IMG/VR virus record: IMGVR_UViG_3300044971_000861
Span: 1 to 39,436 of that record
Strand: one strand, 5' to 3'
Length of the DNA stretch: 39,436 bases
Source: a virus
The notes beneath the pieces are model-generated. The model was not told where the DNA came from. It did not search any database and saw nothing but the letters and a program-made list of their open reading frames with translations. Of the stretch, positions 27,012 through 27,573 are shown piece by piece. Every line of letters begins with the position of its first letter. Position 1 is the first letter of the stretch. The position numbers were made by a program, and so were the translations under genes.

Positions 27012-27197
27012 CTACCGACGCCGCTTCATCTGACGTTCCTGCTCCTCGTTCTGCAGCTCAAAATAACTAGACCAAATCAGTAGCTCTTCTAACGTTATCT
27101 CCCGATTTAGGCGAGCCAACGTGTATCCCAGTTCCTTGGCAACTCCAAGCTGTAGTAACAGCAGATTGTCTTTTTTTAGCTCAGCCTTTACTGCTTT
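27012..27197 (-). CDS. Tail assembly chaperone extension (GT-type, frameshift-accessed ORF)
   Basis: This open frame overlaps the end of the 27181-27573 gene and reads KAVKAELKKDNLLLLQLGVA..., ending NEEQERQMKRRR, the typical end of the T part of lambda G/GT-like chaperones. It has no ATG or GTG; only one TTG occurs, well inside. It is in the +1 frame relative to the upstream gene and blocked upstream by TGA at 27198-27200. The switch must therefore occur between 27197 and the upstream stop (27181-27183), plausibly at AAA-G (Lys codon AAA to AAG). The product would be a G-T fusion needed for tape-measure assembly. Confidence 0.75.
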   Translation of the reverse strand, partial: KAVKAELKKDNLLLLQLGVAKELGYTLARLNREITLEELLIWSSYFELQNEEQERQMKRRR

Positions 27198-27573
27198 TCA
27201 TGTCCAGCTCCTCACCTTCCTCGGGATTCGTGATGATCGCCAGCATGAGTGCCTGCAGATCAGCATCCATTACTTCGTTTTTCAGCTCAGCGATTTCACC
27301 AGCCTGAAACAGGCGTTGACCAGCATCGTCTACGGCTTTCGTCACCAACAGGTTGAGCGCAAAGCCATTCGGATCATCACCGCCAGGCATTTTCTGTGCT
27401 CGCTCGCGTTCCGCCATCGTCAACGGCGTTGCGTAAAACTCAAACAACTCACCGTTTGCCAAGGTCACCACACGCTTGATTGGCGTCAGGTTTGCAGCCT
27501 TTTTCAGACGGGCAAGGGCTGACGATGTAGGTGCGGGCATAAAAAAACGGGTTCTTGTTATCACTTTAGACAT
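27181..27573 (-). CDS. Tail assembly chaperone (lambda G-like)
   Basis: 130 aa, placed between major tail protein and tape measure as expected. The core (RVVTLANGELFEFYATPLTMAERE in two pieces, FALNLLVTKAVDDAGQRLF, AEIAELKNEVM) matches phage tail chaperones. It ends DMKSSKG-stop inside the T-frame ORF. The ATG at 27573 directly follows the T-run of a terminator; an internal ATG at 27540 is possible. Confidence 0.8.
   Translation of the reverse strand: MSKVITRTRFFMPAPTSSALARLKKAANLTPIKRVVTLANGELFEFYATPLTMAERERAQKMPGGDDPNGFALNLLVTKAVDDAGQRLFQAGEIAELKNEVMDADLQALMLAIITNPEEGEELDMKSSKG

Follow-up and report, generated by a model that had tools for sequence, protein, structure and literature searches.

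A predicted +1 frameshift at a conserved AAA_AGC site in the tail assembly chaperone genes of a virus related to Cyanophage KBS-S-2A

How is a tail gene translated when its reading frame has no usable start codon and is out of phase with the gene that it overlaps? This question is raised by the virus record IMGVR_UViG_3300044971_000861, analysed over its 39,436 bases (the window; all coordinates are positions within this record). Four coding segments follow one another on the minus strand: major tail protein (28386-27628; phrog_158, E 1e-8), G (27540-27181), the T frame (27197-27012) and the tape measure protein (26985-24724; PF20155 TMP_3, E 1e-35; phrog_339). The 3' end of G reads GAG GAG CTG GAC ATG AAA AGC AGT AAA GGC TGA. 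One base forward of G, the T frame, 61 codons followed by a TAG at 27014-27012, translates as K-A-V-K-A-E-L-K-K-D-N...M-K-R-R-R and would be read only after a shift. The initial annotation had correctly placed the G stop (TGA, 27183-27181), the open T frame and the TGA that closes it upstream at 27200-27198, overlapping a conserved ATG at 27201-27199. It had also described T as having no ATG or GTG, which is literally wrong: T contains an ATG five codons before its end, as well as a mid-frame TTG. Neither is able to start the conserved domain. The nearest named phage is Cyanophage KBS-S-2A (71.5% nucleotide identity, with 98% of a 1.5-kb query aligned), and the host of the virus is therefore probably a picocyanobacterium. 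No tRNA gene was found within the window.

We next considered the identity of G. The mechanical open reading frame starts at 27573, but homology begins at the ATG at 27540 (MPAP...), which is the likely true start and gives a protein of 119 amino acids; this start is favoured because the ATG at 27573 sits in the T run of a terminator-like hairpin. The hairpin, GGCCCCTGGGTTGCACCGGGGGC followed by the T run (27602-27579, minus strand), lies between the major tail protein gene and G, and KBS-S-2A carries a similar one at the same place (GCCCTAGCATTGCTGGGGC-T6). Its effect may be to keep transcription of G-T below that of the major tail protein. Just past the hairpin lies CTAAAGTGATAAC (27569-27557, minus strand), which has a counterpart in KBS-S-2A (CTAAAGTAATAGC) and no second good copy anywhere in the window. 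G matched phrog_20784 (E 1e-34), a PHROG family without assigned function; a Pfam search returned no match for G or for T, and a PDB sequence search using the G-T fusion profile returned none either. An AlphaFold model of G built from 49 sequences was of moderate confidence (pLDDT 73.8). When the model was compared with the PDB by Foldseek, the best match was the HK97 tail assembly chaperone 2OB9 (probability 1.00; 2ob9_A and 2ob9_B at E 2e-3 to 4e-3, TM 0.47-0.53), and its BFVD matches included named tail assembly chaperones. G is thus a predicted tail assembly chaperone, both by its position, with the major tail protein gene before it and the tape measure gene after it, and by its modelled fold. 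The T frame matched phrog_26456 and the tail proteins phrog_337 and phrog_14766. In the last of these, a 224-position profile, T aligned to positions 123-161, the pattern that would be expected of a G-T fusion. The locus therefore resembles the siphophage G/GT pairs in the location of its genes, in the tail-chaperone fold of G (moderate model) and in a T frame that overlaps G in another frame, lacks its own start and shows conserved coding.

To see how far the frame offset extends, junctions were collected by searching viral contigs with the tape measure protein, G, T and two distant G proteins, and named phages were added. Among 316 distinct readable junctions, T was in the +1 frame in 263 and in the -1 frame in 53; an in-frame G-T fusion was found in none. 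The +1 (equivalently -2) offset given by the initial annotation was thus confirmed and is widely shared. No prophage relative was confirmed among genome contigs. The annotation had also reported that a -1 heptamer is missing, and indeed the overlap of the window contains no X_XXY_YYZ and T lies in the +1 frame. An A7 run at about 27173-27167 is situated beyond the G stop; transcriptional slippage on this run was rejected, since the run is past the zero-frame stop and is interrupted by G in about half of the relatives.

Comparison of the relatives revealed purifying selection on G and on the +1 frame of T, and it also showed where the frame changes, how the slip bases are conserved and that the stop is retained. 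For this, 93 distinct window-type sequences were aligned on the ATG, and substitutions were tallied on a tree for which the nine core bases had been removed. Upstream of the core, frame-0 third bases change often (6 times at -1, 20 at -4 and 16 at -7). Within it, ATGAAAAG (positions 0 to +7) did not change at all, and the C at +8 changed once, whereas most wobble sites flanking the core, counted in frame 0 before it and in the +1 frame after it, change 6 to 30 times. From +9 onwards, changes cluster at the wobble positions of the +1 frame (19 at +9, 29 at +24, 19 at +27) and many other positions are quiet. Selection therefore acts on frame 0 up to AAA|A and on frame +1 beyond it, so that, judged from these substitution patterns, the selected frame switches exactly at ATG-AAA-A|GC (27201-27193). 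The zero-frame stop of G, which lies 15 nt past the start of the shift codon, is kept in all 93 sequences, 18 nt past the ATG in 88 and 27 nt past it in 5, and its T (+18, a third base of the +1 frame) changed only 4 times. Both products, G and the fusion, appear to be needed.

The predicted shift site is the AAA_AGC at 27198-27193. AAA-A is the sole point in the invariant core where a P-site tRNA can move +1 with full re-pairing. The zero-frame lysine codon is AAA in 93/93 sequences, while elsewhere in the same G genes AAA and AAG are used 307:319. All 93 window-type relatives carry AAA_AGC, in one of them as AAA_AGT, and of the 263 +1 junctions 258 show AAA_AGC in frame, 3 AAA_AGT and 2 AAA_AGA. 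Both AAA_AGA junctions (L419 and L421) belong to a clade with GTA before the site, and in them the hexamer directly precedes TAA. The same frame switch at AAAA was observed in two more clades, GTA-AAA-AGC (77 sequences) and CTN-AAA-AGC (73 sequences), where the site is preceded by GTA or by one of various leucine codons and a stop, be it TAA, TAG or TGA, comes 6 to 15 nt later. Throughout the leucine clade AAAAGC is unchanged, against 17 changes at the wobble base of the codon before it. In the GTA clade (L064-type), the codon before the site is GTA in 76/77 sequences, though GTT is the commonest valine codon in those G genes; an E-site or A-run effect is possible. All together, it is very likely from these alignments that this virus and hundreds of its relatives make the chaperone fusion by a forward skip of some ribosomes at a fixed AAA-AGC.

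Programmed +1 frameshifting, with peptidyl-tRNA-Lys moving from AAA to AAA while AGC occupies the A site, is the best explanation of these patterns, and we hold it with high confidence. We infer a ribosomal event in which most ribosomes would read G through to the TGA at 27181 and yield G. A minority, at an efficiency that would leave the fusion as the rarer product, would pause with peptidyl-tRNA-Lys on the AAA at 27198-27196 while the AGC at 27195-27193 is presumably decoded slowly, and would slip one base forward. The tRNA-Lys would then re-pair perfectly with the overlapping AAA (27197-27195), and the next codon would become GCA (Ala, 27194-27192) in place of AGC. Reading would continue in the T frame to the TAG at 27012, producing the fusion ...EELDMK-AVKAELKKDN...MKRRR. 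The Ala codon after the slip is nearly fixed, and by analogy to Ty1 a well-supplied +1 tRNA may help. The second AAA (27189-27187), also partly conserved, could contribute to the shift. By analogy to lambda, the role of G may be to cover the tape measure protein, and that of the rarer GT to bring in the major tail protein.

Other explanations must account for the same data. The initial annotation had placed a +1 shift inside ATG-AAA-AGC-AGT-AAA-GGC-TGA; the segment and the direction hold, but the exact site that it chose, AAA-GGC-TGA, where Lys-tRNA would move from AAA to AAG close to the stop, is improbable in our judgment. This site is intact in 76/93 window-type relatives, and the first base of its AAA changes 6 times against 15-30 at many +1 wobble sites. 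Yet 8/93 have no second AAA_R in the overlap, all 93 having the upstream AAA_AGC or AAA_AGT; moreover, the position and codon of the stop are variable, the site is absent from the other +1 clades, and +1-frame selection is already present at base +9, upstream of it. The alignment of relatives that the annotation proposed as a check therefore upholds the offset, conserved in 263 junctions, but not this site, and the junction D-M-K-S-S-K-A-E-L-K-K is replaced by the predicted D-M-K-A-V-K-A-E-L-K-K. A -2 shift at the same place, as in phage Mu, where it is known for this gene pair (PMC5009743), would reach the same frame with one extra residue, giving the junction peptide DMKSAVKAELKK. We consider it very improbable: no codon of the overlap re-pairs at -2, the AAA at 27198 meeting TGA and the AGC meeting AAA, and perfect re-pairing is available for +1 only.

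Could T instead be made separately, from its own start or by reinitiation past the G stop? The close overlap of G and T and the upstream Shine-Dalgarno-like 5-mers found in 83/93 relatives would suit such a model, but a TGA shuts the T frame right before AAA, and in 140/263 of the +1 T frames the stretch before the conserved core lacks ATG, GTG and TTG alike, such codons being variable where present. Separate translation would also leave unexplained both the invariant AAAAG and the heptamers present at the same place in the -1 relatives. We regard it as highly unlikely, and a separate T start, which the annotation had named as a finding that would overturn a shift, did not emerge. The annotation had likewise named a sequencing indel. 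Offsets known from one genome alone are often errors; here, the offset recurs in 263 distinct junctions drawn from many assemblies, none of the junctions analysed is in frame, selection on the +1 frame is clean and the zero-frame stop is kept. Sequencing error or gene decay is therefore excluded in practice by the independent assemblies, and we give it a negligible probability.

We then searched for elements that might stimulate the preferred +1 shift at AAA_AGC. The A-site codon is AGC and not a stop. A prfB-like Shine-Dalgarno element at 3-nt spacing was not found, the bases at that spacing being mostly CTGGAC-ATG; an upstream Shine-Dalgarno stimulator was rejected more generally, as the wobble bases across the 5-mers mentioned above vary freely. 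No conserved 3' RNA structure was detected in the window-type clade (alifold z 0.4), and folding of single sequences in 70-nt windows gave z-scores of -0.9 to -1.6 versus -0.8 in the -1 group, with no clear difference. A downstream RNA structure was rejected on the grounds that there is no conserved fold and that these z-scores are weak. A pause due to codon rarity was also rejected because AGC is not rare in the window genes, where it ranks 15th among codons (241/10,293, 23 per 1000); around the GTA-clade loci its frequency drops to 9 per 1000. AAA_AGC occurs once in the other window genes against 4.6 expected, but its avoidance is weak in larger sets and is also seen near -1 loci, hence it is not specific.

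The 53 relatives with T in the -1 frame provide a contrast. All but one carry an in-phase X_XXY_YYZ (C_CCA_AAN, A_AAA_AAC or A_AAA_AAA); the exception, L323 (Prochlorococcus phage P-HS2), has no perfect heptamer and reads GCA-AAG-GAA-TCC-TAA. KBS-S-2A (NC_020854; Synechococcus WH7803) has homologous G and T, but its T is in the -1 frame and its junction, GTA-AAA-AAC-TAA, places A_AAA_AAC directly ahead of the G stop. The predicted fusions are nevertheless colinear: D-M-K-A-V-K-A-E-L-K-K-D-N in the +1 type, D-V-K-N-L-K-Q-E-L-K-K-D-N in KBS-S-2A and D-P-K-S-L-S-A-E-L-R-K-D-N in another -1 relative. The public record of KBS-S-2A (NC_020854.1) annotates no gene in the T frame, and the chaperone fusion of this phage has therefore been missed. 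A tree of 79 representatives placed the window-type clade (SH-aLRT 99) among -1 phages, and by parsimony the direction changes at least 3 times on this tree. The AU test rejected neither a single +1 clade (p 0.44) nor a single -1 clade (p 0.42); since the data are compatible with one +1 origin, we do not claim independent origins of +1.

How does this site compare with known systems? Xu, Hendrix and Duda reportedly described, in 2004, -1 programmed frameshifting in lambda/HK97-type tail assembly chaperones. In bacteria, prfB undergoes a programmed +1 shift at CUU_UGA_C. The present site is likewise a predicted bacterial programmed +1 shift, but its A site holds no stop and no Shine-Dalgarno-like element lies 3 nt upstream of the shift codon. 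For lambda gpG/gpGT and HK97-type chaperones, -1 programmed frameshifting is documented (PMC5009743); our locus shares with them the order major tail protein, G, T, tape measure, the overlapping frames, a T without start and, for HK97, a G model that resembles 2OB9, and it differs in shifting +1 on AAA_AGC where theirs is -1 on X_XXY_YYZ. Tailed phages differ in whether they shift this gene pair by -1, -2 or +1, and +1 frameshifting is "very likely" in the chaperone of the haloarchaeal myovirus HSTV-2 (PMC5009743), which shares with our locus the shift and the gene pair but has an archaeal host. The +1 shift proposed here thus belongs to a rare variant already on record, in agreement with the initial annotation, which had called +1 or -2 rare for this pair. 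The yeast sites Ty1 CUU_AGG_C and Ty3 GCG_AGU_U, with AGG and AGU in the A site (PMC5009743), are similar in combining a P-site event with an A-site codon of the AGN type, which for Ty3 is serine AGU; at our junctions the A-site codon is AGC or AGT in 261/263 and AGA in the other 2. They differ in belonging to yeast retroelements with slow A-site codons, whereas AGC is common in the phage genes; moreover, unlike in Ty3, the P-site tRNA here would re-pair fully, AAA to AAA. In yeast, AAA-AGG-C gave 1.2% +1 shifting versus 0.05% for AAA-CGT-C (PMC4627075), thus a P-site AAA ahead of an AGN codon is able to shift. Neither the use of AAA_AGC as a natural shift site nor a change of direction among these phages turned up in the open papers searched, and both appear unreported.

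Programmed +1 shifts in bacteria are few. According to a 2024 method paper, a general motif for forward shifts has yet to be identified (PMC10885494). In these phages, the predicted function is ordinary and it is the +1 signal that is unusual and strongly conserved, one hexamer being almost fixed across three clades beside -1 heptamer relatives with the same product. We tentatively suggest, as an idea more doubtful than the shift itself, that AAA_AGC might be a compact, general bacterial +1 signal, able to set the G:GT ratio of hundreds of aquatic phages with no help from a stop, rare codon, internal Shine-Dalgarno or RNA structure; on this view it would have replaced -1 heptamers, or given way to them, on more than one occasion, the fusion remaining colinear. 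A search for -1 heptamers would miss the window-type relatives, and annotation tools could use the AAA_AGC motif to find missed chaperone fusions. What decides the direction of slippage could be studied in the +1 and -1 relatives, which nature offers as matched pairs.
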